From Microcaldota archaeon (GTDB lineage Archaea; Micrarchaeota; Micrarchaeia; Micrarchaeales; CABMGC01), in NCBI GenBank assembly GCA_021848025.1, contig JAJZND010000026.1:1-42339 (forward strand): 42,339 nt of DNA, written 5' to 3'. Shown one piece after another: positions 9,713 through 29,334 of the stretch (the first letter of the stretch is position 1; the number at the start of each line of letters is the position of its first letter). Both the position numbers and the translations under genes were made by a program. The notes under the pieces were generated by a model. It searched no databases and was not told the DNA's origin. It saw only the letters and a list, made by a program, of their open reading frames with translations.

Positions 9713-9877
9713 AAATTAATCCATTCACTCGTATAAGCCCTGTAAATTATATTGCTATTTTTTACTATATTAACATGGCTACAGAGATATTGATTTTTCT
9801 TTAATATACATAATCGAATTTTCAAAAGATCGTAAATTTCCTTTCGGATAGGCTTTAAATACGACCCTTAATTGCTA

Positions 9878-10855: not shown

Positions 10856-10872
10856 GATTCAACCCCTTATAT

Positions 10873-12231: not shown

Positions 12232-14331
12232 GTGCTGGTGTTTTTCGCATTTGCTGTATTGCTCTCTATTGGCGCGATAAATGCGCTGATACCGATAATT
12301 ATAATACTGATACTTATAGCTGCCGCGGCAGGCTCTACAAGAGGGTACAGCATCTTTGCAATATTGGGCATAGGAACCATTGCAGGAATGGGACCAAGCG
12401 GAAAAGGCAGCATGGCAGGTAAAGGAAGCTATCCTTTCAGGTCCATTCTCGATCCGAATATAAGGGGGCCGAGGAAGTCTCCAGAAGTTAAGGCTAAAAA
12501 AGCAGCAAAAAAAGCAGCAAGAAAAGCAGCATTAAATGAAAAACCTAAGAGACCGCTCAAGCCATGGGAGAAGAAAACCCTTGATATGGCAAGATGGGCT
12601 GTCGCACCTGCAATATTTGGCAGCGGCATGGCGCTTTATCAGAGAGGCAGCTCGGTAGCTAGAAGGATAGCAAAGTCATCAACTCCGCAGGGCAGGAGAG
12701 ATGCCAGATCTGCAAGGACAGAAGCAGCAAAGGGGCAACTTAGCGGAAGCCTTGACTCGCGGAAATCTCCGCAATATAAACCAAATACCACTCCTGGAGC
12801 ACCTCCCGGGAGCGGGGTTGTTACAAATAGATTGAGCTCTGAGAATAGGGAAATTATAAGAAGGATATTGGATTCCAGAAGCAGGGGAATAGGAGCAGTG
12901 CCTACAAGTGCCATAGGAGTTGGAGCAGGAACTGAATTAAGGCGGGCCGTGATGGCGCTTAAAAACCGCCAGTTTAGGGTCGCCAATGGACATCTGAACA
13001 ATGTTTCCAAGATAACAAGCCATAACCTGCAGCAGAGGCGGTTAAATGCAGTTTCTGGAAAGGCTTTGCTCGAAAGGCAAAAACTCCTAAATGAAATGAA
13101 AGAAGCAAACGAAATAGGAAGGGGACGCACTGTGCCTCCTACAACAGTAAGAACCACTTACACTGGTGCAGACGTAGGGGCTACAAGGACCATCTGGGGC
13201 TCTCTGGCCATGGCAGGTCTTGCGAGACTCAGGGGAGACAGATATGCATCTAATTTGTATAAGAGGGATGCTATGGCGCAGCTTAAGGTTAGGAGCGCAG
13301 AGGGCAGCCTTGCGCTTTCAAAAAGGCTCAGATATGGAGTAACTGACAAAAAAGGCAATGTAACCATGGGTGCGCTTCATCAGCAAATAGGAAGGGCGGC
13401 GCGGCAAGAAAAAGCAGGTGAGGAAGCCAGAGCAAGGGAAAAACGTTTGCGTGATCTTGAATTATTTCTATATGGCTCAAAGGACGTATATGGACTGGGA
13501 GGACAGATAGGTGCTTTCGAGAAGATATACGGAGTCAATGATCCAAGCAAAGTAGATAAGTTGAGAGAGAGGGTAAAAGCAGAGCAGGCAATTGCAGATT
13601 ACAGATATAGTGGAGATCCGGCTGCACTGACTACTATAGAGCGCGCTAAAACGTTAAAAATTATCAGTAATCAGAAGTACAATGAAGCTCTCAGAGCGGG
13701 CCCGCATTCATTTACGAAAAAAGAGTATGAATCTCAGACAGAGAAAAACAAAAATGCCATGGAAAATGTTTCGCAGCTTGAGGTCGGAAGGATAGCATTT
13801 GCACAGGATAAACTTGCGCGCGGTGAAATAACGCAGGATGTTTATGAAAATGAGATGGGCAGGATACAGAAAGAGCAGAGACTACTCAGCAAGCTTTCAT
13901 ACGAGCATGCCCGGCTGACATCAGGAAACCCTCCTGGAAGAATAGAGGTAAGCTTTAATCGCAAAATTGTACCAGGTGGAGGGGTAGAAGCAGGCGGACT
14001 TCTGCCTACTATAAAAATAAATGGCAGGCAAACAGGTACAAGTGGAGTGGCGCAGCGATTGTTTGAGTTTCATAGGAACGTCAATACTATTAACAAGCTA
14101 AAAGAAAGAGGCGACAGGGAATTTCAGCCTCCTACCGATGGCATATTTTCTGTTTCTGGAAGATGGCGCAATGAAAACGTTACCACGTACCCCTCTTTCG
14201 AGGTTGGCAGTGCTCCTGCAATTAACAGGAGGGTCTATAGAGTAGGAGAGGGGCCTGTTGAATACCAATTGAGGCGCAGGAGGGTGGTGCCTGTGCCTCG
14301 CTGGGAGAAGGTAAAGAAAAATGAGGAGTAG
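12232..14331 (+). CDS. Membrane-anchored, very basic coiled-coil protein, first gene of secretion-like cluster
   Basis: 699 aa; hydrophobic N-terminus (VFFAFAVLLSIGAINALIPIIIILILIAAAAG), then Lys/Arg/Ala-rich KAKKAAKKAARKAALNEKPKRPLKPWEKK and a long helical charged body. Confidence 0.75.
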   Translation: MLVFFAFAVLLSIGAINALIPIIIILILIAAAAGSTRGYSIFAILGIGTIAGMGPSGKGSMAGKGSYPFRSILDPNIRGPRKSPEVKAKKAAKKAARKAALNEKPKRPLKPWEKKTLDMARWAVAPAIFGSGMALYQRGSSVARRIAKSSTPQGRRDARSARTEAAKGQLSGSLDSRKSPQYKPNTTPGAPPGSGVVTNRLSSENREIIRRILDSRSRGIGAVPTSAIGVGAGTELRRAVMALKNRQFRVANGHLNNVSKITSHNLQQRRLNAVSGKALLERQKLLNEMKEANEIGRGRTVPPTTVRTTYTGADVGATRTIWGSLAMAGLARLRGDRYASNLYKRDAMAQLKVRSAEGSLALSKRLRYGVTDKKGNVTMGALHQQIGRAARQEKAGEEARAREKRLRDLELFLYGSKDVYGLGGQIGAFEKIYGVNDPSKVDKLRERVKAEQAIADYRYSGDPAALTTIERAKTLKIISNQKYNEALRAGPHSFTKKEYESQTEKNKNAMENVSQLEVGRIAFAQDKLARGEITQDVYENEMGRIQKEQRLLSKLSYEHARLTSGNPPGRIEVSFNRKIVPGGGVEAGGLLPTIKINGRQTGTSGVAQRLFEFHRNVNTINKLKERGDREFQPPTDGIFSVSGRWRNENVTTYPSFEVGSAPAINRRVYRVGEGPVEYQLRRRRVVPVPRWEKVKKNEE

Positions 14332-14415
14332 CTTTTATAGATCATTTAAGTGCCTCTCTCGTCCTTAGCACAAAAGCTCTTCCTGAAGCAGCTCCGCTCT
14401 CTTCATAGATATCTA

Positions 14416-14425
14416 ATTATATAAT
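14416..14425 (+). promoter_or_regulatory. TATA-box-like element for the first polytopic paralog
   Basis: attatataat about 25 bp upstream of ATG 14445. Confidence 0.5.
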
Positions 14426-14444
14426 TTGCCATAGATATAGCACT

Positions 14445-15698
14445 ATGCGCCTAGCCAGTGGCATCCCCAAAGTCCTGCTTTTCATGCTTTTCTTTCTTGG
14501 CATAGCTAATGCGTGCAGCGCTGCAGCGAACACTGCGGGATTTAATTTATCCATTATTAACAAGACAGGTGGGCTGGAGCTCTCTTTCCTCGCGTTGCTT
14601 ATCTCGTTAGACGTGATAGCGATTGGATGGATCGCAAACAAGATTCTCCCTTCCATAGGCATAGCAGGCTGGCTGCCAAGGGAGTACTGGGAATTTACTA
14701 AATCTGCAATTCTTGTAGCTACCATCTTCTCGGTAATAGCGTTCGTAAGCGGGCTCTCCTTGCTGCTCGGAGGAATCACGCCGCCAGCTGCAGGAGCATC
14801 GCCGGCATACGCCGCGAATGCAAATGCCCTGGTCTACCAGTCTGAAACTTATCTTTGCACAGTGGATAATTCCCTACAGGCTTCAATGGCAAACGTAGTC
14901 ACGCTCTCTTTCGGATTGGGCGAAGTGAACGGAGCATATGGCGGCATAGGTGTCTTTGCTGATGGGCAGGGAGGAAATCCCGGTTCTTATGCGGGCCTTG
15001 CGCTCTTCTATCAGGGCATACCGATACCGCCTACTGAACTGCCAGGAATTTTAGGACTGCTCCCGGAGTTCAGGTCAGGCATAAACTTTGTCATACTCAG
15101 CAACTTCATGCTCGGCTCGAACTTCGTCTTCCACAGCCAGTTTGTCTCATTCATAAACGATGCGCTTGTCTTCCTGGCTTTTCCGATGGCCATCTTCTTT
15201 ATTTCTGAAGAGAAGCTGCTTCCCCTGCTTGTGCTCATAGGGCTCAATGTGCTAATACCTATCGGCCTTGTCTTCCGCTCTTTCCCGTTCCTGCGGAACA
15301 TAGGGGGAACGCTGGTGGCTCTCGGCATAGGTGTTTCGCTCATCTGGCCTTCGCTGCTGCTGCTGATCAATGCGCCCCTTAGCAGTTACTTCGAGCCACT
15401 GCTCTACGACACCACCTCATCAAGCACAGCGTTCTCCAACAGCTGCCCGGGCTTCTTCGCAATCATATGCAACGGCGTAAACACGCTCTTTACTGGAACA
15501 TTCTACGGTTTTGACAGCATAGACAACATTTATCCTGATATTAACTTCCTTATGAAAAATGAGCTCTTTATAATATTCCAGCAGTATGTGCTCTTTATGA
15601 TAGACTTGGTGATCTTCTTCCCGCTTACCGATGCCATAGCAAGAACACTCGGTGGCACAATCAGACTTCAGCTCGGAAAGAGGTTTAAGCTGGTGTAG
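14445..15698 (+). CDS. Polytopic membrane protein, VirB6/TrbL/CedA-like candidate (paralog 1 of 6)
   Basis: 417 aa; motif GLVFRSFPFLRNIGGTLVALGIGVSLIWPSLLLL; Cys-containing predicted external loops. Confidence 0.75.
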   Translation: MRLASGIPKVLLFMLFFLGIANACSAAANTAGFNLSIINKTGGLELSFLALLISLDVIAIGWIANKILPSIGIAGWLPREYWEFTKSAILVATIFSVIAFVSGLSLLLGGITPPAAGASPAYAANANALVYQSETYLCTVDNSLQASMANVVTLSFGLGEVNGAYGGIGVFADGQGGNPGSYAGLALFYQGIPIPPTELPGILGLLPEFRSGINFVILSNFMLGSNFVFHSQFVSFINDALVFLAFPMAIFFISEEKLLPLLVLIGLNVLIPIGLVFRSFPFLRNIGGTLVALGIGVSLIWPSLLLLINAPLSSYFEPLLYDTTSSSTAFSNSCPGFFAIICNGVNTLFTGTFYGFDSIDNIYPDINFLMKNELFIIFQQYVLFMIDLVIFFPLTDAIARTLGGTIRLQLGKRFKLV

Positions 15699-15700
15699 AT

Positions 15701-16873
15701 ATGATAGGCTTCTTCTCGTTTGCAAACTTCATGCTCGCAGCCACAACGACTTACCAGGCTACCTGCTCCTATGCATACCTGAACCAGGCCGGCTGGATAA
15801 ACATAAACATGCTTGTTGTACTGGCATTCATGCTTATTGCGTCATTGATATATGCGATAAGCTCGCTGCTGCCTGCTTCAAAGAGCGAGAGGGTCAAAGG
15901 CCTCGTAAAATTTGAATTGGTTCAGGGCGTAATAAGCGTTCTGCTTATAGTGGCCATACTTTCCTTTGCAGATGTTACGTGCAATGCAGGCGCAGCGCTT
16001 ATGGGCCCATACAGCGGCTATCAGGATCCATTCCAGTACTCGCATTTCTATCTCGGAACCCTTGTCTTTACCACTGGCGTCTCGCTTATTTCGAACCTGT
16101 GGTCGCAGGGGATAATACTGCTGGTGGATGGAAACCTGGTAGGCGACTTCCTAAGCAGCATCCCGCTGGGCCATTTTAGCGGAGGCCCATTCAGCGTTGA
16201 ATTCGGCATAGGGGATGAAGCAACATATGTCTTTTTCGAGTACAACGGAATACTCGCGCAGGTCTTCTCTGTGATTGTAGTGCTTACTTCCGGGATACTT
16301 GTAATAGTATTCCTTATTTTGCCTGCGGTGGAGCAGCTCGCTCTTGGTGTTGTGCTGCCGGTAGCCATCATAATGAGATCGCTTTCATTTACAGGGCCCA
16401 GGCTGCGTGAGGCTGCTAATTCATTCATTGCTCTTGCCCTTGCCTTCTACTTCGTTTTCCCCATGACAATAGTTATGGACAGCTACATTACAGGATGGCT
16501 CTACTGCACAAACGGAACAGTATGCAATCCTTACTCCGGCTATCTTGGCTCATATCCGCTGAGCAATCTGCCGGTAAGCCCGCTCTTCGAGCAGAAAAGC
16601 TCAGTGAAATTAGGCATCGGTGCGCCGCTGAGTGTTTACAGCGCAGAAGTAAGCGGCAATGGAGGAATAGGAAGCATGCTGACGCAAATGCTTGAAAGCC
16701 TGGTAAGGCTGCCTGCGGTTGTGCAGAACTTTATACCTTCTGTGGCAGAGTACGTCTTCCAGGGCATTATACTTTTAGGGCTTGACCTTGCAATAACAGT
16801 TGGATTTGCAATAGGGCTTACAAAGAGCTTTGCTGCTGCTTCCAGTTTTATGCATGTTGGCCCGGTGCTTTGA
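15701..16873 (+). CDS. Polytopic membrane protein, VirB6-like candidate (paralog 2 of 6)
   Basis: 390 aa; motif AIIMRSLSFTGPRLREAANSFIALALAFYFVFPMTIV (degenerate); WLYCTNGTVCNPYSG external Cys pair. Confidence 0.72.
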   Translation: MIGFFSFANFMLAATTTYQATCSYAYLNQAGWININMLVVLAFMLIASLIYAISSLLPASKSERVKGLVKFELVQGVISVLLIVAILSFADVTCNAGAALMGPYSGYQDPFQYSHFYLGTLVFTTGVSLISNLWSQGIILLVDGNLVGDFLSSIPLGHFSGGPFSVEFGIGDEATYVFFEYNGILAQVFSVIVVLTSGILVIVFLILPAVEQLALGVVLPVAIIMRSLSFTGPRLREAANSFIALALAFYFVFPMTIVMDSYITGWLYCTNGTVCNPYSGYLGSYPLSNLPVSPLFEQKSSVKLGIGAPLSVYSAEVSGNGGIGSMLTQMLESLVRLPAVVQNFIPSVAEYVFQGIILLGLDLAITVGFAIGLTKSFAAASSFMHVGPVL

Positions 16874-16903
16874 AATGGATTACACTGTACGATTTGACAG
16901 GGT

Positions 16904-18379
16904 ATGCAAATTGGTGAAGCTACGATGAGGCCGTCCATACTGCTTATGCTGTCATGCGCGCTGCTCATGCCTTTACTTATTACATCCGCAGCAGCTGCCG
17001 CGCCCAAGACTCCCACCACCATAACAAATGCAAATGTGCTGAACCAGTGGCTGAGCGTTATCATGATAGCTGTGCTGGCCAGCGTGCTGCTGCTTATCTT
17101 TTACTATGTTGCAGGATACCTTCTCAATAATGCGCAGATAAAGGCAACTGCAATCAACGAGATCCAGCAGGCTTTTGGCACAGCAGTGGCAGTCTTTATC
17201 ATAATAGCGGCACTTGATTTTGTAGGGAATGCTGTTTTCTCTAGCACAAATCTCGTGCCTCCGTCTACCATAAGCAGCATCTGCAACACCTTAACTGGCG
17301 CCAATCTGGATTTTGTGAAAAATGCCGCACCTAACGGCTATTACACCCCTACAAACACCCTCTGCAACGGCATTATAAGCAAGGCCAAAGGCGGCACCCT
17401 CAGCGTCTCCAACTCCATCGACTACGGCCTCGGAGCTTCTTACATAATAATAGCCAACATAACCAACCAGAGCCTCACTAATCTAAATGCAGTCTACATT
17501 TTCGAGAGCTATACTGGATTCTTGACTGCACTGAACCCTACAGCAAGCATTTGCATACCTAATGATACCTGCTTACCTGACGACATCGGGGCCTTCTACG
17601 CTTCTATCAGCTATGCGCCTTTTGCTGCGTACGGAACTCTCAGGGGAGTTGTCTTCCCTGTAGCTACGCAATCAGAGATGATCTTTTACATGAGCCTGCT
17701 TGAGGAAATGGCGATACTGCTTATGCTTTACGCATGGCCGTATATACTCGCTGCAGGCATACTACTGCGTGCCTTTACCTTTACCCGTAGGGCAGGCGGG
17801 CTTATCATCGCCTTGGTGCTCTCGGCTCTGGTTATCTTCCCGCTGATAATGCTTTTTGAATATTCCTCGCTTACTAACCCGCACATAGTGCCGATAGGCG
17901 CGAATGAGATAACCGTAAATGCGATAAGCAACAGCATTGCACTTAAAGGATTGCCAATAGGCAAAACTGACACCCCTGCAAACGTAATAGATTACAGCTC
18001 CGGCACCATAAACTTCTTCTCCTTCCCGCGCGCAGACTACGTGCTTAATTACGAAGGCTGCTGGCCTGGCACGTCACTGATTACCAGGGAAGCGGAGATA
18101 GTGGGAGGTTATGCCATACCTGGCTATGGAGAATTCCTTACACTCTCCACTGCGCTCGGATCATTCAGTGCATCGGTGCCTGCGGTGCCTTTCACAAATT
18201 GCAACTGGCCAAATGTAATACACTCGCTCTTTGCGCTTGAAAATCTCTATGGGATTATCTCAGTCATAGGAGTGATAGTGCCGGTACTCAATCTCCTGAT
18301 TGTGCTAGGAAGCGCCAGAAGCTTATCATTCCTGCTTGGAGGGGACACGAATATCTTTGGGCTTGGACGCTTGTTGTAG
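16904..18379 (+). CDS. Polytopic membrane protein with signal peptide, VirB6-like candidate (paralog 3 of 6)
   Basis: 491 aa; motif GILLRAFTFTRRAGGLIIALVLSALVIFPLIM; probable start is ATG at 16925 (MRPSILLMLSCALLMPLLITSAAAAA). Confidence 0.75.
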   Translation: MQIGEATMRPSILLMLSCALLMPLLITSAAAAAPKTPTTITNANVLNQWLSVIMIAVLASVLLLIFYYVAGYLLNNAQIKATAINEIQQAFGTAVAVFIIIAALDFVGNAVFSSTNLVPPSTISSICNTLTGANLDFVKNAAPNGYYTPTNTLCNGIISKAKGGTLSVSNSIDYGLGASYIIIANITNQSLTNLNAVYIFESYTGFLTALNPTASICIPNDTCLPDDIGAFYASISYAPFAAYGTLRGVVFPVATQSEMIFYMSLLEEMAILLMLYAWPYILAAGILLRAFTFTRRAGGLIIALVLSALVIFPLIMLFEYSSLTNPHIVPIGANEITVNAISNSIALKGLPIGKTDTPANVIDYSSGTINFFSFPRADYVLNYEGCWPGTSLITREAEIVGGYAIPGYGEFLTLSTALGSFSASVPAVPFTNCNWPNVIHSLFALENLYGIISVIGVIVPVLNLLIVLGSARSLSFLLGGDTNIFGLGRLL

Positions 18380-18381
18380 GT

Positions 18382-19602
18382 TTGGCCATGAAAAAATACG
18401 CGCTCGCACTGCTCTTTGCCTTTTTTGTGTTAGCTTCGCCTTCGCTCGCCGTGGCGTCCTCTTCCACTACAATAGGCAGCACGTACTGCACGCCTATCTT
18501 TACGCCCAGCAAAGCAGTGGTCTCGACTTCATTCGTGCTAAGCCCTGGATCGGTGCCCATAAAGGGTACCTTCGGAGGTGTGATTAGCATAGCCCTCCTC
18601 ATAGTGCTGATGGTGTTTACTGTAATCGCATTAGTATACGGAGTAGGAGTAGCTTTCAGAATAGACAAACTTATCAGATTCGGTCGCGCCGAGCTTCTTG
18701 AATCGTTTGCGAACGTAGTGATAATAGCAGTAATAGCGTTCGGAGTAGGGACCATATTCGGAGCAGCGTCTTTTCTTGCTAACCTGGGCTCGCTTAATGT
18801 AGTTGCTCCTTCGTCTGGCTTTTCCACTGGCGTGCAGGGCTTCTATACCAATACATGCATAAACATCTTCAACAACGTAATAATAACCAGCTTATTTGAC
18901 ATGGTCGGGGGCCTTGCGAATGCCGTAATTTACGAGATACTTGACGACTTCCAGCTCACTTTCGTACCTGGAGGCGTCATTTCTTATGTTGTGCCAGGTT
19001 TTCAGGCCCAGCCATTTCAGGGAATAGGTCCAATAGTCTCGCTTACTTTCGTTGAGACCTCCACATTTACGGCATTCATTATGACAGGATTAGGCATAAT
19101 CTTCATGCTCTTCGTCATTTATTATCTTTTCCCTATCTTCCTTTATTTGGGGATAGTGCTCAGGGCCTTCCCCTGGACGAGACCGGCAGGAGGTGCGCTT
19201 ATAGCAATATTCGTCTCGTTTTACATCTTCTTCCCTGCACTGCTTTATCCGTTCACTACCTTTGGCAGTAGCGTTGGTAACATATACTGCAATGGATCTA
19301 CTTCGCACGGAGGAACTACTTCGCCCAGCGGAAAGCCAGTCCCGGATATCTGCAGTTCGAATGACATTACGCATTACATCGCTACCGGAGGTATAGATGC
19401 CTTGCTGGCCCTTTTAGGCAACATTAACACCGCATTCAACAGCAATGTAGAGGTATATGCGAGCATGGTAGCTGCATTCGCACTTGAGTTTATAGGATTT
19501 GCCATAGCATTTCTTATATCCTACGACCTGCTGGAGGTGTTCGGAGACCTCTTCGGCTCGCCTTCACTGCAGGCGAATAGGATACTGAGTAGATTGATAT
19601 GA
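18382..19602 (+). CDS. Polytopic membrane protein with signal peptide, VirB6-like candidate (paralog 4 of 6)
   Basis: 406 aa; motif GIVLRAFPWTRPAGGALIAIFVSFYIFFPALL; N-terminal signal peptide; probable start ATG 18388. Confidence 0.77.
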   Translation: MAMKKYALALLFAFFVLASPSLAVASSSTTIGSTYCTPIFTPSKAVVSTSFVLSPGSVPIKGTFGGVISIALLIVLMVFTVIALVYGVGVAFRIDKLIRFGRAELLESFANVVIIAVIAFGVGTIFGAASFLANLGSLNVVAPSSGFSTGVQGFYTNTCINIFNNVIITSLFDMVGGLANAVIYEILDDFQLTFVPGGVISYVVPGFQAQPFQGIGPIVSLTFVETSTFTAFIMTGLGIIFMLFVIYYLFPIFLYLGIVLRAFPWTRPAGGALIAIFVSFYIFFPALLYPFTTFGSSVGNIYCNGSTSHGGTTSPSGKPVPDICSSNDITHYIATGGIDALLALLGNINTAFNSNVEVYASMVAAFALEFIGFAIAFLISYDLLEVFGDLFGSPSLQANRILSRLI

Positions 19603-20828
19603 TGCCTTTGCCTTTTCTCTTGCCTGGGGGATATGCACTTGCGATCAGCGGGTGCTCTGCCACAGGAGGCGCGGCAAGCTTGGTCAACTATATTACGGCA
19701 CCATGCGGAGCATGGTTCCCCATTGCATTGATAGCAGTACTTATAGTAATAGGCATTATGGCCATAATATACGGCCTGAGCGAATTCATAGGGAGGAATG
19801 ATATAAAGACATGGGTTAGGGTAAAGATCTATGACGCGCTGCTCTCGGTAGTCTTTATACTCATCTTTGCTGCATTCGGCACGCTCTTGTTTACTATACC
19901 CGTAGCATCAACCCTGCAGAGCGTGAAGCTCTTCCCTGGAAGCGGGGGAAGCACGCCTTCTGAATGCGCATCCCAATCGCCTACTAAAGTAAACAACCTT
20001 TATTCGGTAGCATCGTGCGACATGTTCCTGTTCAACTTTTACGAAGCTAACGTAAACTTATACATATTTTATACTTTCCTTCTTACCTCTGCTGTAGCAC
20101 CTGAAATAGGATTCTCGCTCAACTTTGGAAGCGGATCGCTAGGCAGTGGAAGCGGCACTGGTGGCTCGCCAAGCAGCGGAAGCAGCACCGGCAACCTTGG
20201 AGGTAACATAGGAATAGGCGCTTCCGGCATTGAGATCTTCCCGCAATATGCATCTTATAAGTTCCTTGGGCCAGTACTCGACCTTTTCTATGGCCTGATA
20301 CTGCTGAACCAGGTCCAGCTTATACTTATCGCAGCTTCAGCATTAATCTTCTCTATCTTTATGGCCCTCGGGCTGATCGCAAGGGCTTTTGTGGTAACGC
20401 GCACATTCGGTGGCGCAATGATAGCGTTTGCAATAGGGATAGGATTTATCTATCCGCTTCTTGTTTCGATAAACTACGGCTTTTTAGTATATGCGCTCTC
20501 TACCAATACACTGAGCTCTCTTGTAAATCTCTCAAGCGGAACCATCGCATTTTTTGGCGTGCCCCTTATGTTTATCAATCTGATGGCAAGCCTGACAACA
20601 GGGCTCACCGGTTCTGCCCTCTCGTTCTTTTCTTTGGGCAGTTATCCGTATACACAACTGGTAGGCGCATTCCCTTCTTACCTCTTTGAGTACTTCGGCC
20701 TTGTGATTTCAGGGCTTATGTTCATACCTGTGCTTGAGCTTGTGCTTGTCGACGTTTTCATCATAGACTTCTCGCAGGCGATAGGAGAACGCATGGACCT
20801 CCTCTCTCTATTTACGAGGTTGCTGTGA
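19599..20828 (+). CDS. Polytopic membrane protein, VirB6-like candidate (paralog 5 of 6)
   Basis: 409 aa; motif GLIARAFVVTRTFGGAMIAFAIGIGFIYPLLV; 4-bp overlap with the preceding stop; Gly/Ser-rich external loop GSGSLGSGSGTGGSPSSGSSTG. Confidence 0.77.
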   Translation: MMPLPFLLPGGYALAISGCSATGGAASLVNYITAPCGAWFPIALIAVLIVIGIMAIIYGLSEFIGRNDIKTWVRVKIYDALLSVVFILIFAAFGTLLFTIPVASTLQSVKLFPGSGGSTPSECASQSPTKVNNLYSVASCDMFLFNFYEANVNLYIFYTFLLTSAVAPEIGFSLNFGSGSLGSGSGTGGSPSSGSSTGNLGGNIGIGASGIEIFPQYASYKFLGPVLDLFYGLILLNQVQLILIAASALIFSIFMALGLIARAFVVTRTFGGAMIAFAIGIGFIYPLLVSINYGFLVYALSTNTLSSLVNLSSGTIAFFGVPLMFINLMASLTTGLTGSALSFFSLGSYPYTQLVGAFPSYLFEYFGLVISGLMFIPVLELVLVDVFIIDFSQAIGERMDLLSLFTRLL

Positions 20829-20838
20829 GCTGATTTGC

Positions 20839-21918
20839 ATGAGGAGAATGCTTTTTTATCTCATCCCGCTTTCACTGCTTCTAATCAGCATAGCCCACTC
20901 CTCTTACTTCTCCACCTACTGCGCTCCGGTAAGCGGAGCAGCGACAGGCTTTAATGTCAATGCTCTCGCACCGTGGTACTGCAGCCAGATAAACCAGACG
21001 CTCTCTAGCGACTGGAGCTACTGGGAACCCATTGCATTTGCCGCAATCATGTTCTCGCTGGCAGTGGGAATAATAATATGGACCTTCGGAGGGCTCCTGC
21101 GAAACGAGCGGCTGAGGACGTTTGGCCTTGGGGAGCTTTATGAGGCGTTCGCAACCGCGATAATAGTAGTGCTGTTTCTCTTCATCTCTGCAGTTATGCT
21201 TGGCCTGCTGCCAAGCGTCGTGGTAGGCAACATTAATCCGTACACTACATCGCTTACGTACATAGCAAGCACCATAAATTCTGTGCAGCAGGAGGTTTAC
21301 AGTGCCTTCTATATAGAGATTCTTGACAGATATTATTCCAGCATAAGACTCCAGGTATGCATACTTGAAGTTTGCCAGGGCATACCGGAAACTTTCGCAT
21401 ACATAATAAATTATCTCTATTATATCCCGGCTTTTACCATAATAGATCTGCTGCTTGACGGGATTATGCTGCTATACGGCGAATTCTACCTGATCCAGAT
21501 CTTCCTTTACATGGCCATCCCCGTCTTTCTCATTCCAGGCATAATACTTCGCGCAATTATGCCTACTAGAGGCATAGGCGGCATGATGATAGCTATTGCA
21601 ATAGGCTTTTATGTTGTAATGCCCATCCTCTTTGCCACCGCATACGCCTTCAGCGCAAAGCAGCTGATAAACCAGTTTGATGCGAATACGGCACAGTTCC
21701 AGCAATATGGGCAGGGGACAGATGCACAGATAAACGCCTTGACTCCCTCTTCTCCGCTGATAGAGACGCTGACAAACATACAGAGCCAGATGGGAAGCTT
21801 CTGGCTTGCAATTGTCTTCTGGCCTTCGCTCATAATAGGCATAAGCTATGAGATTATAGTCCAGATAGCAGAATTCATAGGGGGCATGGCACAGGGCTCA
21901 GGGAGGATGAGGATATAG
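20839..21918 (+). CDS. Polytopic membrane protein with signal peptide, VirB6-like candidate (paralog 6 of 6)
   Basis: 359 aa; motif GIILRAIMPTRGIGGMMIAIAIGFYVVMPILF. Confidence 0.77.
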   Translation: MRRMLFYLIPLSLLLISIAHSSYFSTYCAPVSGAATGFNVNALAPWYCSQINQTLSSDWSYWEPIAFAAIMFSLAVGIIIWTFGGLLRNERLRTFGLGELYEAFATAIIVVLFLFISAVMLGLLPSVVVGNINPYTTSLTYIASTINSVQQEVYSAFYIEILDRYYSSIRLQVCILEVCQGIPETFAYIINYLYYIPAFTIIDLLLDGIMLLYGEFYLIQIFLYMAIPVFLIPGIILRAIMPTRGIGGMMIAIAIGFYVVMPILFATAYAFSAKQLINQFDANTAQFQQYGQGTDAQINALTPSSPLIETLTNIQSQMGSFWLAIVFWPSLIIGISYEIIVQIAEFIGGMAQGSGRMRI

Positions 21919-21944
21919 CGCCGTAATTAGCACTGCCCTGCGTT

Positions 21945-21956
21945 AATTTAATAAGC
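21945..21956 (+). promoter_or_regulatory. TATA-box-like element
   Basis: aatttaataagc about 30 bp upstream of GTG 21982. Confidence 0.4.
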
Positions 21957-21981
21957 TTTCCAGTTTATTCTTAATTGATCG

Positions 21982-22821
21982 GTGTTTGTGTTGGCACTTA
22001 ACCTGCAGCTCCTGCTCTTTGTGGTACTTGTAGGTGCAGGAATAGTTGTCGCTGTCTTCATCTACGTGATTCCGTCCCCTGTGATCTCGCCAATTCTGGC
22101 CATAATAACACTTATAATTGCTGTCTTCGCTTTTGCCACAAAATACTATACGTACCTGATGGTGCCTGCATTGAAGATGAAAGGCAGAACCATAGTTCTC
22201 AGCGCAGATGAACCGTTTATCATAGCGCCTAATAACACCGCAATATTGATGCATGAGGGGCAGGAGGTTTACGCAAGCGCGTTCGTAAAAATTCCGCTTT
22301 ACAGATCTGCCACTGAGATGAGCAATGATGAGAAGCTCGATTTTGCACGCCTCTTCTCAAGGATGACAACACTTAGCAAGATACCTGTCAAGATCTCTTC
22401 GCAGATGCACGTGATAAACAAGGATGAATATATTACAAGCATAAGGAACAAGCTTAACGAGGCTCAGGAGCGGTACGCCACGCTTGGGGCGAAGCCCGGA
22501 GGGAGCAAGGCAAGTAATGACAGAATAAAAGGCGAAGTCACAATGTGGAAGAATCTCATGGACAATGTCAGCGCCTCGCAGGCCCATGCGCTCACTATAT
22601 ATGCAATGGTCAGCGCAATGGGCGGCAATGAAGAAGAGGCATTGACCATTGTAAATCAGCAGGCCGAGGATTTTGCTGCTGGGGTTAGTGCCATATTCGG
22701 AGTGAGTGCATATGTAGTGAAAGGTATTGAACTTCTTACATTCATAGAGCCAGACCATATGATACCTGTAGAGACGGTAACTGAGAGGCTCAAGGAAAAG
22801 GCTACAGAAGAGGCGCTATAG
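21982..22821 (+). CDS. Two-TM membrane protein with cytosolic domain; candidate VirB3/PrgI + VirB4 N-terminal-domain-like protein (A)
   Basis: 279 aa; two N-terminal TMs then alpha/beta domain with VKIPLYRSATEMSNDEKLDFARLFSRMTTLSKIPVKISSQMHVINKDEYITSIRNKLNEAQERYA. Confidence 0.65.
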   Translation: MFVLALNLQLLLFVVLVGAGIVVAVFIYVIPSPVISPILAIITLIIAVFAFATKYYTYLMVPALKMKGRTIVLSADEPFIIAPNNTAILMHEGQEVYASAFVKIPLYRSATEMSNDEKLDFARLFSRMTTLSKIPVKISSQMHVINKDEYITSIRNKLNEAQERYATLGAKPGGSKASNDRIKGEVTMWKNLMDNVSASQAHALTIYAMVSAMGGNEEEALTIVNQQAEDFAAGVSAIFGVSAYVVKGIELLTFIEPDHMIPVETVTERLKEKATEEAL

Positions 22822-23646
22822 ATGGATGAATATACTATAATGTACTTATCGATTTCCGGCATACTTATATTCATCGTGATTGCAGGCTATGGTGCATACG
22901 GCGCATTTGCCCCGCTCATAATCGTCTTGGCCATATTGGCTATGCTTGTTATACTCTTACTTAATTATGCAGACTTCGTGATCTTCCCAGTTATAACGCA
23001 GGTGCTTGGGATAAAGGTGCTCCTCTGGAAGGATTACATGGTACCCAAGACCGAGAACTGCGTGATAAAATACACAAAAGGACTGTACTACGCGCAGGGC
23101 TATCTCTCGGCAAACATCTATAACTACATCTTCGCTGCGGAGAACATAAACCAGGAAGAGGATGCAGGCATAATCAGCGGCGCAGACAAATGGGAGAGGA
23201 TAGTGATGAGCATAGACTTTCCGTTCAAGTTCAATGTAGTTTCACTCGCAGAAGAATTGCAGAAGCACAGGGAAGAGCTTGAAGGTAGGCGGGGTTTCCT
23301 GCAGTTTCAGATGTCGCGGGAAATGAGCAGCGGCAATCCAAACACCCTTACAATACAGGATATGCAGAAGAAGATAAATATAATACAGGCAAGGATAGAC
23401 AGGATCTCTGCAGGAGAAAGGCCTGTAAAGACAATAATGTACATAGAGACAGTTGCAGTCGGAGTCAGCGAGAAAGAGGCTACGGACAACCTTACCAATC
23501 AGCTAAACAAGCTGATTACAGTGTTCAATTCATTCGACCTGAGTATAATGCGCGTGACTGGAAGGGAGATGCATATACTCAACAAACTTAACTATAGGAT
23601 CATGGACTTTGACCTGCTTAACAGGCAGTTCCAGCTGCAAAAATGA
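22822..23646 (+). CDS. Two-TM membrane protein with cytosolic domain; candidate VirB3/PrgI + VirB4 N-terminal-domain-like protein (B)
   Basis: 274 aa; same architecture as upstream gene; IVMSIDFPFKFNVVSLAEELQKHREELEGRRGFLQF and long helical part. Confidence 0.65.
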   Translation: MDEYTIMYLSISGILIFIVIAGYGAYGAFAPLIIVLAILAMLVILLLNYADFVIFPVITQVLGIKVLLWKDYMVPKTENCVIKYTKGLYYAQGYLSANIYNYIFAAENINQEEDAGIISGADKWERIVMSIDFPFKFNVVSLAEELQKHREELEGRRGFLQFQMSREMSSGNPNTLTIQDMQKKINIIQARIDRISAGERPVKTIMYIETVAVGVSEKEATDNLTNQLNKLITVFNSFDLSIMRVTGREMHILNKLNYRIMDFDLLNRQFQLQK

Positions 23647-23650
23647 ATGG

Positions 23651-23660
23651 AATATATTTA
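23651..23660 (+). promoter_or_regulatory. TATA-box-like element upstream of the motor ATPase
   Basis: aatatattta centred about 30 bp upstream of ATG 23686. Confidence 0.5.
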
Positions 23661-23685
23661 AGCTTTGAAAGCCAAGTGCATTTGT

Positions 23686-25200
23686 ATGTCGATCGTGCGT
23701 ATCCAGAACGTAATGAGCAATGAGCTCTCAAAGAGAATCTTCGTAACCAGGCCTCCGGAGCCGCCTTACGAGTTTCTGCTCAATGATCCTACGGATTCGA
23801 TCTTTATAGGCATAACCAAGCTCTTTGGAGTGCCATTTACCTGGAATTTTGCGAATCTTGCGAATCCGCACATATCCGTAGTGGGAATTACCGGATCTGG
23901 AAAGAGCTTTTTTGTGAAGACTTTCCTTACCCGGGCCAGCTTCGTCTGGAATACAAATGCAATAATAGTCGACTGGGCAGGAGAATACATAGCTTGGGTA
24001 AAGAATAGCGGCGGCGTGGTAGTCTCGCTTGCAAAAGGGGACTACATGAATCTGATGGACCTCTCAGGCACAAAACCTCTCGACCGCGTAAAGCAGATTA
24101 TGAATGCCTTTGACATACTTACAGACATCTCTGATTTCCCTGAGCAGCGGAGGCTTACCGCAGAAGCTATTGAGCAGGCTTATCTGAATGCAGGGTTCGG
24201 GCTCGCAACGCTTCCAGATCCGAGGAGGGAGGTGCCAACGCTCAAGGATGTTACTAAGCTGCTTGAGGAGAAGCTGCAGGAAGGCACATACCAGTATCCT
24301 GCAGAACTGGAAAATACGATTTATAGGTTAAGGCAGTTCTCCAGGGATGGAGAAGACTATTTCGCCAAGAAGAGTACAATAGACCTTGGCAAACTTGCCA
24401 CTTCCGGGCTGGTGGACATAGATCTTTCCGGGCTCCCTGATGAGAAGTTCAGGGCCATGGCAGCTCTCTTCATTCTCCAGACGCTCGAAGTGATAATGCG
24501 CGCTGAGGGGTGGAGCTCGACCAAGGGATTGAAGGCGCTAGTGGTCCTTGATGAGGCCTGGAAGATAGCCAACGACGAGAGAAGCGACGCTATAACAATA
24601 ATAAGGGAGGGCAGAAAGTATCAGTTTGGACTCATAGTCGCATCTCAGAATCCCACAGATATAAACGAAGCCATCTTCTCTAACGTAGGCACTACAATAA
24701 TGCTCAAGATAAAGTTTGAGAAATTCTTGGACTACCTGCAGGGCTCACTCAACTTCTCGGCTTACATAAGGAAAGAGATAGGCAATTTCGGGGTGGGACA
24801 GGCTGCCGTTGACATGTCCTTTAACACGTCTGTCCAATTCCCAAATGTCTTTGTAATAGAGAGGATAGTAGGAGAAGTGCCACTCGATACATACACCATA
24901 ACCATAGGAGACATACTCACGCCATCCGAGCAGGAACAGAAAACTATACCTAAGGATTATTCCTTTGAGAGGATAGATATGAGCTCAAAATTCGTAGATG
25001 CAGGCTTCAGTGCAGAAGCCATACAGAAGATATTCAAAGGAATGGACAGCAAGGGAAGGGTGATTGACATAAGGGCTATGATGCAGATACTCTCTGCAGA
25101 GAATATTGACAAGAACGTCATGGTTTCATTCCTGAGAAGCATAGGCCTCTCTGACACGCTGATAACCCGCGTCTTCGGATACCTAGCAGCGCAGATGTGA
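23686..25200 (+). CDS. VirB4/HerA superfamily ATPase lacking a large N-terminal domain
   Basis: Walker A GITGSGKSFFVKTFL; Walker B ALVVLDEAWKIAND; IIREGRKYQFGLIVASQNPTDINEAIFSNVGTTIMLKI typical of VirB4/HerA. ORF track starts at TTG 23665, but ATG 23686 fits the TATA spacing. Confidence 0.88.
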   Translation: MSIVRIQNVMSNELSKRIFVTRPPEPPYEFLLNDPTDSIFIGITKLFGVPFTWNFANLANPHISVVGITGSGKSFFVKTFLTRASFVWNTNAIIVDWAGEYIAWVKNSGGVVVSLAKGDYMNLMDLSGTKPLDRVKQIMNAFDILTDISDFPEQRRLTAEAIEQAYLNAGFGLATLPDPRREVPTLKDVTKLLEEKLQEGTYQYPAELENTIYRLRQFSRDGEDYFAKKSTIDLGKLATSGLVDIDLSGLPDEKFRAMAALFILQTLEVIMRAEGWSSTKGLKALVVLDEAWKIANDERSDAITIIREGRKYQFGLIVASQNPTDINEAIFSNVGTTIMLKIKFEKFLDYLQGSLNFSAYIRKEIGNFGVGQAAVDMSFNTSVQFPNVFVIERIVGEVPLDTYTITIGDILTPSEQEQKTIPKDYSFERIDMSSKFVDAGFSAEAIQKIFKGMDSKGRVIDIRAMMQILSAENIDKNVMVSFLRSIGLSDTLITRVFGYLAAQM

Positions 25201-25201
25201 T

Positions 25202-25501
25202 TTGATGACTGGAACATTTATAATAAGCAGGATAGAGCTTGAAAGGGTGCTTACTGGGTTAGGGGTCAGTACGCAAAAGATAGAGGGCCTTGTCACTGCA
25301 CTCAATAAGATGCACAGGCATTCGAATGCAGTAGCATTCGTAGGCATGCTTCAGAAGACCGGGCTAAGGCAGCCTGAGATAGCGAATATATTGAGGAGGA
25401 TAGGGGTAGACGATGTGACTGTTACAAATATCTTTAACTCTCTTGACGAGGAGAGGATAAAGAGTGCGTTTGGCAGGATTGTGGAGCTGAAGGTGGAATG
25501 A
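25202..25501 (+). CDS. Small helical protein repeating the C-terminal tail domain of the ATPase
   Basis: ANILRRIGVDDVTVTNIFNSL aligns with VSFLRSIGLSDTLITRVFGYL at the ATPase C-terminus; 2 bp after the ATPase stop. Confidence 0.65.
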   Translation: MMTGTFIISRIELERVLTGLGVSTQKIEGLVTALNKMHRHSNAVAFVGMLQKTGLRQPEIANILRRIGVDDVTVTNIFNSLDEERIKSAFGRIVELKVE

Positions 25502-25902
25502 TGCAGGCTAAGAAGCAGCACACATACTGCATGGTCTGCGGAAAGGAAAAAACCGGCATCTCTGTCAAGGAGGATTATGTAATAGACTTTATAAGATGGT
25601 TCAAAAAGACAGTGCTCAGGTCCGAAAGCCACAATCTGCTCGTAGTATGCGAAGAGGATTATCCAGTATACAAGAAATACAGGAAGAGGTTTGTATCAAG
25701 GCAGCGGATCTATATCGTGCTTGGCGCGCTTTTCGTAATCTTTGGCATGATTATCGCGCCGTTTATAACCACACTGCTTTGGATGCTTGCGCTTCTTCTT
25801 TTCCTGTACCTCCTATCCCTGATAAATTATGTGCCAGCGCTGGATTTGATGAAATATAAAGAAGGCAAGAAAACTGTGGGAAAGAAGAAGGATGCACTGT
25901 GA
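25498..25902 (+). CDS. Zinc-ribbon-like protein with two C-terminal TM helices
   Basis: YCMVCGKEKTG...VVCEEDY plus hydrophobic pair; overlaps the upstream stop (ATGATG). Confidence 0.65.
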   Translation: MMQAKKQHTYCMVCGKEKTGISVKEDYVIDFIRWFKKTVLRSESHNLLVVCEEDYPVYKKYRKRFVSRQRIYIVLGALFVIFGMIIAPFITTLLWMLALLLFLYLLSLINYVPALDLMKYKEGKKTVGKKKDAL

Positions 25903-26046
25903 GTGCAAAGACGCCGGCTCTCTTTTTGGCATGGAAAGCCTTTATAGCTTGACTTCCAAATAGTACCGTTTTTTCTCCTATTCGAGAAATAACACAGTAT
26001 ATAAACTTTAGTATATACCAATTATCATTGATAAGATTGTGGTCTT

Positions 26047-26772
26047 GTGGCTGAAGATGTAAACATTACCCCGCGTGTTGAGAAAGCAGAATTCCCGGCG
26101 CGTATTACTGGAAGTATGCAGGATTTGGCGGTAGAGATTAAGAAGGTGCCTTTTTATTCTGTAAGCGTTTCTGGGGATGCGCTTTTTGCCGTGATGGTAG
26201 AGAGCAGAAATATAAAGAAGAGGCCATACCTATTTCATATCCTGAACTTTTCTGAGAACAAGCTTACGCTGATATATTCGATAGTGCAGGATAGCAGCGA
26301 AGACATGAGGAGGGCTACAGTGCTGAGGTATGCCTCCTCTCTGCTCTCTATGGTCTCAGACCGTTGCCAGGTTGACCAGGGCTCTTTCTACCAGTACATT
26401 GACTCTGTGCTTGGAAACATACTGACAGGCATTTCACAGCCGTTCAGCGCGCTCTTCAATAAGTACGGTTCGCTTGTCTCAGAGTACAGGGAAGTGAAGA
26501 GGATAAATTTAGAACTTTCAGCCTCAAACAGGAATCTCACGCTGCAAAGCTCGAAGCTGGACGAAGAGAACAAGAAACTCAAGGCACAGTTGGAGAAACT
26601 TGAGACATATTCTGACGAATCGCTCATGGCCATGGTGCAGGATTGGCTGGAGGTGCACAACAGCACCATAGAGGTTAATGATTTCGCGAAGAACCATGGA
26701 ATCTCTGCGCCAAGGGTGGAGCAGATACTTGATAAGATGGTCTCAAAGGGTTATCTGGAACTGAAGAGCTGA
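26047..26772 (+). CDS. Coiled-coil protein with C-terminal winged-HTH-like domain
   Basis: LSASNRNLTLQSSKLDEENKKLKAQLEKLE coiled coil; WLEVHNSTIEVNDFAKNHGISAPRVEQILDKMVSKGYLEL wHTH-like. Confidence 0.65.
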   Translation: MAEDVNITPRVEKAEFPARITGSMQDLAVEIKKVPFYSVSVSGDALFAVMVESRNIKKRPYLFHILNFSENKLTLIYSIVQDSSEDMRRATVLRYASSLLSMVSDRCQVDQGSFYQYIDSVLGNILTGISQPFSALFNKYGSLVSEYREVKRINLELSASNRNLTLQSSKLDEENKKLKAQLEKLETYSDESLMAMVQDWLEVHNSTIEVNDFAKNHGISAPRVEQILDKMVSKGYLELKS

Positions 26773-26776
26773 GCTT

Positions 26777-26923
26777 ATGGAATATAAATTTGCAGTAAAC
26801 AAGCAGTACAAATACATGCGCATATACAATATAGTAAAGAGAGTCAGCGGGAATCCAAATATAGTCTCAAAGACAATACAGTCGCTTGTTGACAAATACA
26901 TAGTAAAGAAGAAACAGCTTTGA
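26777..26923 (+). CDS. 48-aa basic wHTH-like small protein (absent from ORF track)
   Basis: MEYKFAVNKQYKYMRIYNIVKRVSGNPNIVSKTIQSLVDKYIVKKKQL; ATG 26777, TGA 26921-26923; tightly packed between neighbours. Confidence 0.5.
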   Translation: MEYKFAVNKQYKYMRIYNIVKRVSGNPNIVSKTIQSLVDKYIVKKKQL

Positions 26924-26940
26924 CATTCACACTGGTCTTT

Positions 26941-29334
26941 ATGCCGTCTAAAAAGGTAATAGCTGCGATAATGATTATCGTGGTTGTGCTTGCAGCAATA
27001 ACATATTTGTACTTAAGGAACGCTTTATCCATAGCTTCGATAATAGGCCAGTATGGCATAAAGCCTACTGGCCGCATAAGCGAGCTTATAGGCGTAGCGC
27101 AGACAGGCATCGCCAGCTACAATAACGCTCAGTCGTTTGTCTCATTCGGAATAGTGCACTACAATCTGACCAATGCAAGCTACATGAATCTTTCACTGAT
27201 TACGTACAAGGATAATCCGGTGCAGCAGATATACCTGCTCGACACAGGAAGCTCGTGCATTAACTGCATAAACGACCAGGCGCTTTATGTTGCACTTCTT
27301 GCTGATCTGAAGAAATATGATGCTGTGCAGAACAGCAGCTACGTACATTACATAACATTCAGCGAACTGGGCGAGATAGTAAACAACTCCATAATAATAA
27401 TACCTTCTGGACTAATGCCTGCAAGCCTGCTGCCCGGGACAGGCTTCAACTCAAGCGGCAGCAACATTACAATAATTAACATGCTTAACAGAGGAGATAC
27501 AATAATATACATAGGCAGGAATTTCTCGCAGATGGATGATAATGGGGAGGTTTATATCACCCCTTCGGCAACAAGCGGGTATCTGAATGCGACAGGATTG
27601 GAGAGTGTGGCTTTCCCGCCGGGGATAAATACATCGATAAATGGCTCACGCCTCTATTTCAATTCCTCCCAGTTTCAGTTCCTGAAAGGGAAACTGTACG
27701 GACCGCTGAGCTACGTTGCTGCTGAAAACGGAAGCATTGTGTCATTTGGCAACTATCCGAGCTATGCCTGGCAGAACATAAGCGCAGCCGCAAGTGACCT
27801 TTCTCAGGTGCTCATGCGGCGCTTTTGGATGACTACCTTCCTTATAGGAAATGACAGCCTTAACTTCAGCGCAGAAGTTTACGGAAACCATAGGAGCGTA
27901 GGAGGCTTCACAGATATAATATCTCTGCAGAAAACTCTTGACCTGGCGAATTCCTCTCTTGTAAAATCGCTTGTGAGCGGCTCATATTCCATGCTATATA
28001 TAAAGACCGGAAACTACAATGGATCCCGGATAACATATACGGAAATCCCTGTAACAATAACCCTTTCCAACAGCGCTCTCTTCAGCCTTCCCTCGGTAAT
28101 TGGCGCAACTTCTACTGTACCTATATACGTAAACCTGCTGAACAAGTCATTGAATTCGGTCGCCTTCCACATCGACGTGTATACCTCTACGCTAGGCTAC
28201 GTCTACAGCATACCCATAGGCTTCTTCAACACTTCGCTTGAGATAGTGAAATATTACAATTTCAACCTTCCTACAGGCTACTATATTGGCTTCCTCAGGA
28301 GCATTTATGGGCAGAGCTACGGCAGCGTACTGTTCCAGGTGCTGGGCCTGAACGTCACCCCGATAAACCTGAACTTCCAGAAAGGGATGTTCGCTTTTGA
28401 AATTTACAGCGACGGGCAGCCTGTAAGCGGAGTGCCTTACCAGGTCAGCATCAACAACGCATATACTGAGAACGGAACTGTGACGGATGGCATTATAAAC
28501 TACACACTGCCTAAAGGCGTGCAGATAGCTCACGGAAATCAGACATTCACTTTTTACACTCTTAACAGTACTTATACGTACTCGGTGCTCTATGCCTCGC
28601 CTACGCAAATCTCGCCGTTCTACATTGAAGTTGCGATTGCCCTTGTTGCAATAATACTGCTCAACCTCGTGGCTAAGGCCCCTACACGGGATGAGTATTA
28701 TATCGATGTACCCACATTTCCGCCTAATACTAAGACAGAAGTCAAAGTGGACTCCAGTTCTATTATCAACCTTTTTGACACGGTAAATTATTACTATCAC
28801 TGGAAATACATGCCTCTCACAGCCGAAGAGATAAAGAGCGGCATAGGGAGCAACCTGAGATACAATAGCATGCCTATCTCAATAACCCTGCAGAATACAA
28901 TGGAAGTGCTTGACAGGCTGTCCGTAAGCGGGAGCCTGGATTCAAAATATGGATACTATATGCCTAAGAGGTGGAGGGACTCGTCCAGACATGACATAGA
29001 ATACCTTGTGGTCTTCAGGAAGCTCAGGGATTATTGCGTTTCGCATGCAATGCTCTTCACAGAGATAGATGCAATTGAAAATGCTGACATGCTCGTGACC
29101 AAGGGCGGCATGCAGACGTATGTGTTCATATATTCGGCGCTTTCCAGTGCAAAGAAGATACATATCTATTCCGGCAACAAGGCCGTACTTGTCTTTATAG
29201 ACCAGGAAAGGAAAGCAGAGTTCTTAGACAGGCTTTATGCTGCTGAAGGCAACGATGCTGAGCTTATGAAGATGAGCATAGCATGCTTATACATAAGGCT
29301 GATAAGCACAGAAAACCTGGACCAGTTGATGTAG
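26941..29334 (+). CDS. Large surface protein: N-terminal anchor, sequon-rich ectodomain, second TM and cytosolic C-terminal domain
   Basis: MPSKKVIAAIMIIVVVLAAITYLYL; roughly two dozen N-X-S/T sequons; second TM ISPFYIEVAIALVAIILLNLVA. Track start is TTG 26920; ATG 26941 preferred. Confidence 0.75.
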   Translation: MPSKKVIAAIMIIVVVLAAITYLYLRNALSIASIIGQYGIKPTGRISELIGVAQTGIASYNNAQSFVSFGIVHYNLTNASYMNLSLITYKDNPVQQIYLLDTGSSCINCINDQALYVALLADLKKYDAVQNSSYVHYITFSELGEIVNNSIIIIPSGLMPASLLPGTGFNSSGSNITIINMLNRGDTIIYIGRNFSQMDDNGEVYITPSATSGYLNATGLESVAFPPGINTSINGSRLYFNSSQFQFLKGKLYGPLSYVAAENGSIVSFGNYPSYAWQNISAAASDLSQVLMRRFWMTTFLIGNDSLNFSAEVYGNHRSVGGFTDIISLQKTLDLANSSLVKSLVSGSYSMLYIKTGNYNGSRITYTEIPVTITLSNSALFSLPSVIGATSTVPIYVNLLNKSLNSVAFHIDVYTSTLGYVYSIPIGFFNTSLEIVKYYNFNLPTGYYIGFLRSIYGQSYGSVLFQVLGLNVTPINLNFQKGMFAFEIYSDGQPVSGVPYQVSINNAYTENGTVTDGIINYTLPKGVQIAHGNQTFTFYTLNSTYTYSVLYASPTQISPFYIEVAIALVAIILLNLVAKAPTRDEYYIDVPTFPPNTKTEVKVDSSSIINLFDTVNYYYHWKYMPLTAEEIKSGIGSNLRYNSMPISITLQNTMEVLDRLSVSGSLDSKYGYYMPKRWRDSSRHDIEYLVVFRKLRDYCVSHAMLFTEIDAIENADMLVTKGGMQTYVFIYSALSSAKKIHIYSGNKAVLVFIDQERKAEFLDRLYAAEGNDAELMKMSIACLYIRLISTENLDQLM

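Follow-up and report, generated by a model that had tools for sequence, protein, structure and literature searches.

What kind of machine is encoded by a compact array of 14 genes in a Micrarchaeota genome, and what might it transport? The array lies at positions 12232-29334 of a 42,339-nucleotide contig (C31 in our labelling), referred to in full as the window, from a 1.05 Mb, 88%-complete Micrarchaeota genome (G000). Its 14 + strand open reading frames (ORFs), with intergenic gaps of -4 to 147 bases, are designated A (basic, membrane-anchored), B1-B6 (polytopic), C1 and C2 (two transmembrane (TM) segments plus a soluble domain), ATP (the motor ATPase), D, E (Zn-ribbon/TM), F (coiled coil plus winged helix-turn-helix, wHTH) and G (surface protein). 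Our best explanation, with a probability of roughly 0.75, is a domesticated, chromosomal, type IV secretion system (T4SS)-like trans-envelope machine of Ced/MPF-FATA-like character, in which a six-subunit heteromeric channel serves the exchange of DNA or macromolecules with partner cells. Membership of the T4SS superfamily is supported by the sequence relationships of the motor, a TrsD-like adaptor and pilins.

Organization and conservation of the locus

A preliminary description of the window had listed about 14 co-directional, tightly packed genes, comprising one VirB4/HerA-type ATPase with clear Walker A and B motifs, six polytopic paralogs, two 2-TM proteins, a Zn-ribbon/TM protein, a wHTH protein and a large surface protein, all of which we recovered. 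The basic anchored protein that it also named is present, but is accessory rather than part of the conserved set: among 20 relatives fetched, homologues of A are limited to loci L007 and L062-L064 and occupy varying positions (L-numbers denote loci of relatives, except that L154 is from contig C5 of G000 itself; G- and C-numbers denote genomes and contigs).

All close relatives with names are Candidatus Micrarchaeota metagenome-assembled genomes. Of 98 genomes from the same family and order, 94 have a strong ATPase orthologue (E < 1e-100) at 60-75% identity (98% within the genus), and in a scan of the phylum 89 of 96 good genomes gave an ATPase match with an E-value of 1e-30 or lower. BLAST recovers the full order B1-B6, C1, C2, ATP, D, E, F, G for 18 of the 20 fetched relatives, and topoisomerase VI-B comes next wherever G stays in place. 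In L051 the adjacency of B and C genes is lost, with a B cluster still present elsewhere in the genome, and in L065 F and G are inverted. Stricter labelling with hidden Markov models (HMMs) agreed for 10 of the 20, most mismatches corresponding to an upstream pilin labelled as B2 or to loss of the B2 or D label. Other genera also carry these genes in unchanged order, with a median identity of 31-66%, placing the array far beyond chance, and this order is kept across two families plus a third, more distant family, which answers the preliminary suggestion that gene order be checked in relatives. The near-universal orthologue together with the conserved order and flank mark the array as part of the vertically inherited core chromosome of Micrarchaeota rather than as a mobile element.

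A VirB4-type motor with separately encoded N-terminal domains

The ATPase carries a Walker A motif at residues 74-81 (GITGSGKS), a Walker B motif at residues 292-299 (LVVLDEAW) and a REGRKY motif, the key residues of which are invariant in 15 diverse homologues. It matches DUF87, AAA_10 and the TraG P-loop domain in Pfam, and among NCBIfam models it scores best against VirB4-CD1110 (E = 1.3e-18), CedD (1.5e-18) and CedB (1.2e-16), ahead of HerA (2e-13); its orthologue in a minimal locus (described below) has CedB as its best match (3.6e-30). Profile comparison with a bacterial VirB4 motor was also strong (hhalign 99.9%, E = 3e-37). In a phylogenetic tree, which is unrooted and leaves unplaced the short ATPases encoded by minimal systems within the order, all ATPases of the expanded type found in the window and most of the minimal type form one clade (100/100), with HerA-like paralogues (97/97) and bacterial VirB4 proteins (99/97) as separate clades. 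Profile alignment further identifies D as a duplicate of the ATPase C-terminal domain. As a side observation, the ATPase of one minimal system (L015, 8198-11182) is split just after the P-loop by an intein-like insert of ~500 amino acids, and G119 has an interrupted open frame of similar length (1067 amino acids) on contig C37.

The ATPase polypeptide has neither a TM segment nor an N-terminal domain; these parts sit instead on C1 and C2, each of which possesses two N-terminal TM segments and one soluble domain. When the C2 model was compared with PDB structures by Foldseek, ranks 1-10 were all R388 TrwK/VirB4 or VirB3-VirB4 complexes, the chains matched in the latter being VirB4-sized. This fold match is suggestive and falls below a strict threshold. 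In bacterial VirB4-type plasmid loci, PrgI is followed by an unnamed TM protein of 250-330 amino acids (or TrsD) and then by VirB4; the C family aligned with these TrsD-type proteins at 93.9-95.0% (hhalign, E = 1.5e-7 and 3.5e-8) and with the VirB4 N-terminal domain at 41.5% (E = 2.7e-4), compared with less than 1% for control families of the same locus. TrsD is described as a remote homologue of the VirB4 N terminus (PMC12102498), and by these homologies VirB4 is split in this locus into a motor gene and adaptor genes, the latter supplying the N-terminal domain tethered to the membrane. The locus thus presents a TrsD-like protein adjoining a VirB4-type ATPase, as in MPF-FATA systems; the two TM segments fused to the TrsD-like domains of C1 and C2 may be VirB3-like. 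In loci whose B genes lie elsewhere, the ATPase still has C2, E, F and G as its neighbours.

Polytopic subunits and the six-gene cassette

B1-B6 are each predicted to span the membrane 6-7 times and share the motif R-x(4-8)-TR-x2-GG...P, in which R244 and P262 are invariant and R238, G247 and G248 nearly so; a scan with this motif misses B2 alone, where the GG is altered. Judged by this motif, the six are true paralogues. No usable match came from searching the B and C sequences directly in Pfam, NCBIfam, PHROGs and PDB. The N terminus of the B proteins aligned with the pilin profile at 55-72% (controls below 1%), recalling CedA, the N terminus of which resembles the CedA1 pilin, and, more weakly, VirB6 and VirB2 (PMC9905601). 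Likeness to CedA is thus indirect, through the pilin-like N terminus, and the assignment of the six B genes as CedA/VirB6-like polytopic subunits is supported but not proven.

Outside the order to which the window belongs, B genes may sit apart from the ATPase, yet they do so in clusters of six. Exactly six were counted by script in 8 of 10 class-level clusters (L155-L164), and L156 and L163 also hold six once the ORFs that its overlap rule had discarded are added by eye from the genome hits; several genomes carry two six-gene cassettes. Assignment of class-level cassette members by B1-B6 HMMs proved ambiguous, and trees in which sequences were labelled by cassette position only were used instead. 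In a careful tree built from nine cassettes, none of them from the window's order, each position formed one clade, requiring 5 changes (the minimum) against a shuffled mean of 35.6. A quick tree with the window's order added required 7 changes against a shuffled mean of 62.5; in it, positions 4, 5 and 6 did not each resolve completely into one clade. Four genomes of family f17, whose sole strong ATPase match is weaker and of the minimal type (42% identity in the one measured), possess exactly one B gene each, and the other genomes scanned possess five or more. Together, the clusters of six, the position clades and the single B genes of f17 show that the six-fold split among B genes is ancient, that their order is fixed, that cassettes duplicate as units and that they accompany the expanded-type ATPase.

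In distant families, cassette members reach 600-1140 amino acids, and some subunits carry giant fusions. Also identified beside distant-family cassettes were proteins of 1150-1870 amino acids with 1-2 predicted TM segments (L156 at 14673, L157 at 14750, L158 at 13939 and L160 at 13670), which were Cys-rich and signal-bearing in the two that were read.

Pilins and a second, minimal system

A VirB2/TrbC-type pilin gene of a conserved family lies upstream of B1 in relatives, and pilin-profile matches were found in all 60 relatives searched. One pilin homologue reaches the Pfam TrbC/VIRB2 cut-off; the Micrarchaeota pilin profile did not match a Firmicutes pilin (1.7%). In G000, pilins were located on contig C2 (33617-33967) and contig C5 (30808-31095). 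The former adjoins a 12-TM protein and a 243-amino-acid, 7-TM protein, counterparts of the genes between pilin and B1 in a related genome, and G000 therefore appears to have a split locus. A 243-amino-acid protein with 6-7 TM segments lies between pilin and B1 in most order-level loci (e.g. L061 1821-2552, L048 2271-3002 and L176 6783-7514).

The pilin on contig C5 is part of a second, minimal and nearly complete system in the same genome (L154, 5085-13906), consisting of the pilin, one B, one C, a 377-amino-acid ATPase, an F-like protein and further genes. A 724-amino-acid HerA/TraG-like ATPase lies downstream, and one of 518 amino acids also flanks the system. Minimal clusters were also found in distant Micrarchaeota. 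Further observations, from G076 (contig C8, 19056-20180) and G081 (contig C2), were a four-fold repeat of pilin-like domains inside a single 633-amino-acid open frame and 10-12 pilin matches per genome.

Features of the array and its neighbours

Table 1. Genes of the array, with coordinates in the window and the evidence or remarks attached to each.
Gene	Description	Coordinates	Strand	Evidence or remark
A	699 amino acids, isoelectric point 10.6, basic, N-terminal membrane anchor	12232..14331	+	accessory
B1	polytopic, putative VirB6/CedA-like subunit, cassette position 1	14445..15698	+	motif, TM prediction, position-1 clade phylum-wide
B2	polytopic subunit, position 2	15701..16873	+	pilin profile matches N-terminal part, 15716-15982, E = 6.5e-5
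B3	polytopic subunit, position 3	16904..18379	+	frequent fusion to large additional domains in distant families
B4	polytopic subunit, position 4	18382..19602	+	motif, position tree
B5	polytopic subunit, position 5	19599..20828	+	motif, position tree
B6	polytopic subunit, position 6	20839..21918	+	motif, position tree; AlphaFold model vs PDB
C1	2-TM plus TrsD/VirB4-N-terminal-like domain	21982..22821	+	hhalign
C2	2-TM (VirB3-like by position) plus TrsD/VirB4-N-terminal-like domain	22822..23646	+	Foldseek, hhalign
ATP	VirB4/CedB-type motor domain without N-terminal domain	23665..25200	+	profiles, hhalign, tree
D	duplicate of ATPase C-terminal helical domain	25202..25501	+	hhalign 98.2%, E = 2.7e-14
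E	Zn-ribbon (C11, C14, C51, C54) plus 2-TM protein	25498..25902	+	CxxC/C(xxC) motif, TM prediction
F	coiled-coil/winged-helix protein	26047..26772	+	present in expanded loci and several minimal loci
G	bitopic surface protein, 804 amino acids	26920..29334	+	TM 13-31 and 567-585; ~210-amino-acid tail past second TM

Beside the array, and divergent from it, lie three neighbouring ankyrin-repeat proteins (8354-12099, - strand), two of which have a hydrophobic segment near the N terminus. Further downstream, Rfam identified a tRNA spanning 142 bases (35328-35469, + strand) that ARAGORN missed and that probably contains an intron.

Comparison with known systems

The Ced/Ted systems of Thermoproteota (CedA, CedA1, CedB, CedD, CedE; PMC9905601, PMC11868833) are likewise domesticated, chromosomal and T4SS-like. 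Shared with them are a CedA1-like pilin, a polytopic protein with a pilin-like N terminus and a CedB/CedD-like ATPase on the chromosome, with neither relaxase nor VirB11. In contrast to CedB/CedD, in which the TM and N-terminal domain belong to the ATPase polypeptide, VirB4 is split here into the ATPase and separate 2-TM proteins; Ced, in sharing an N-terminal domain between CedB and CedD (PMC11868833), represents a related but different solution. Moreover, the Micrarchaeota system comprises six obligate polytopic paralogues rather than one or two, plus the additional genes D, E, F and G.

MPF-FATA systems (PrgI-TrsD-VirB4/TrsE) and the T4SS of Patescibacteria (PMC12102498), the latter a core system of ultra-small epibionts, also possess VirB2-like pilins and a TrsD-like gene directly before a VirB4-type ATPase. 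Unlike these, the present locus has no recognisable separate PrgI gene (two TM segments being fused to the TrsD-like domain), no recognised VirB8 or VirB1, a motor without its own N-terminal domain, and six polytopic paralogues that give no profile match to monoderm VirB6. The nearest precedent for channel expansion is the rvh T4SS of Rickettsiales, the five VirB6 duplicates of which (PMC2653234) are likewise highly divergent, ancestrally duplicated, equipped with large flanking extra regions and found in obligately host-associated cells. However, rvh has a Gram-negative VirB/D4 architecture with VirB8-VirB11 and VirD4, whereas the Micrarchaeota six are a separate expansion with order and number fixed across the phylum. 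Nanohaloarchaeal SPEARE loci (PMC10266531) also feature VirB4/TraG-type ATPases in a DPANN symbiont and have been proposed to be secretion-related, but their ATPase forms a fusion with giant Ig-repeat adhesins, and their description includes no cassette of six polytopic genes. No description of a Micrarchaeota T4SS was found in the openly searchable literature (subscription papers and preprints lay outside the search), and the Mia14 paper deals with type IV pili and Sec/Tat rather than with this locus.

A model of the machine and alternative explanations

In the proposed mechanism, C1 and C2 would dock an ATPase hexamer onto a membrane ring, and six different, non-interchangeable B subunits would form that ring or pore in a fixed arrangement. 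Pilins would provide an extracellular conduit through the S-layer, while G and the giant fusions on some cassette subunits may contact partner cells. E, F and A might organise or recruit the substrate, probably nucleic acid, which F and A may handle directly. The machine could thereby pass DNA, or possibly proteins, to or from a partner archaeon; the source archaeon is itself probably host-dependent. The fixed number, order and block duplication of B genes would be simply explained if the six formed one heteromeric channel; alternatively, their conserved operon order might reflect co-regulation only. A bolder version, which we offer tentatively and would not bet on, is that the channel is a genetically encoded hetero-hexamer of six ancient VirB6/CedA-like subunits matched to the hexameric VirB4-type motor, and that swappable cassettes, some with giant domains, tune one motor to different partners.

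Several observations weigh against the T4SS-like explanation. The window itself lacks a pilin gene, and, as the preliminary description had also noted, neither a VirD4-like coupling ATPase, a relaxase nor VirB11 is seen at the locus; a PF10412 search of G000 likewise revealed no clear separate VirD4. The best Foldseek match of C2 has E = 0.012, probability 0.96 and a TM-score of ~0.3, from a model with a pLDDT of 70. For B6, comparison with TrwI/VirB6 (8rt9_F) gave TM-scores of 0.35/0.42 and was not significant (E = 0.23), and the B profile did not match Firmicutes VirB6 (0.3%). The heteromeric ring, the substrate and the direction of transport are features that we only infer. Direct homology of the B proteins to VirB6, on profile and model comparison, is weakly supported, and the VirB6-type assignment in the preliminary description stands in part: topology and the pilin-like N terminus fit, but a VirB6 profile match was not obtained and the fold match is sub-threshold. 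Its type IV secretion-like reading is, by comparison, supported by ATPase, C-protein and pilin homology, and the closest structural matches of its 2-TM proteins are indeed to T4SS proteins.

Two narrower versions of our explanation, which overlap in confidence with it, differ in the partner. The machine may be a Ced/Ted-type apparatus for DNA uptake or exchange among Micrarchaeota cells, for homologous repair, with the B proteins forming a more elaborate CedA/CedE channel and host contact playing no part. CedB and CedD are among the best ATPase models, the pilin, polytopic and ATPase composition agrees, Ced itself has two CedA paralogues and a VirB4 N-terminal domain shared by CedB and CedD (PMC11868833), and a wHTH protein occurs in both expanded and minimal types. 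Simple DNA import, however, leaves unexplained why one genome retains both the large expanded system and a minimal, Ced-like one, and G and the giant cassette fusions of distant families point to contact with other surfaces; we regard this version as possible, at somewhat less than even odds. Alternatively, an episymbiont might use the machine to deliver proteins to, or draw molecules from, its host archaeon, in parallel with Patescibacteria, in which the VirB4, TrsD, VirB6 and VirB2 set is reported to be widespread and T4SS genes to be essential for epibiotic growth (PMC12102498). Consistent with this are the near-universal presence of the system in Micrarchaeota, the host association of known members (PMC5498576, PMC11329633) and the large surface and fused parts. 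Yet the essentiality seen in Patescibacteria cannot be carried over to Micrarchaeota, neither an effector nor a coupling protein nor any host-specific pattern came to light, and cryo-electron tomography of ARM-1 traced intercellular nanotubes to the host (PMC11329633), so that this version too is a tentative one. Ced-like DNA exchange and Patescibacteria-like host interaction have much the same plausibility, and both could hold.

A HerA-type DNA repair or defence ATPase lying beside an unrelated transporter cluster is very improbable. The central domain does match DUF87/HerA, and PADLOC HerA models match as well, but VirB4 and Ced models outscore HerA, HerA-like paralogues form their own clade, the C proteins match VirB4-associated TrsD, and the ATPase stays with C2, E, F and G where B genes moved. 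Contrary to the grouping with HerA beside NurA that the preliminary description had named as a refuting outcome, no NurA nuclease adjoins the ATPase or was found in a search of the 88%-complete genome, and a HerA/NurA repair pair was rejected on this search and the ATPase tree. As for an integrated conjugative element or plasmid remnant, T4SS gene content is set against near-universal vertical presence with a conserved topoisomerase VI-B flank, the absence of any relative in an IMG/VR scan, plasmid matches that are distant and nearly all below 27% identity, and a window in which neither a relaxase nor an integrase is seen (relaxases were not searched for genome-wide), so that we dismiss it as barely credible, in keeping with the preliminary view that this is not a standard conjugative element.

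Significance

Known T4SS have one, a few or (in Rickettsia) five channel proteins, and to our knowledge none has been described with a fixed six-gene cassette of one orthologue per position. The cassette predicts a concrete structure, a six-membered heteromeric ring, and archaeal counterparts of TrsD and the VirB4 N terminus are now supplied as separate genes. To the question of how molecules pass between DPANN archaea and their hosts, the locus contributes a T4SS-derived candidate that is chromosomal and near-universal throughout one whole DPANN phylum and whose components resemble those of the T4SS reported to be essential for epibiotic growth in Patescibacteria.

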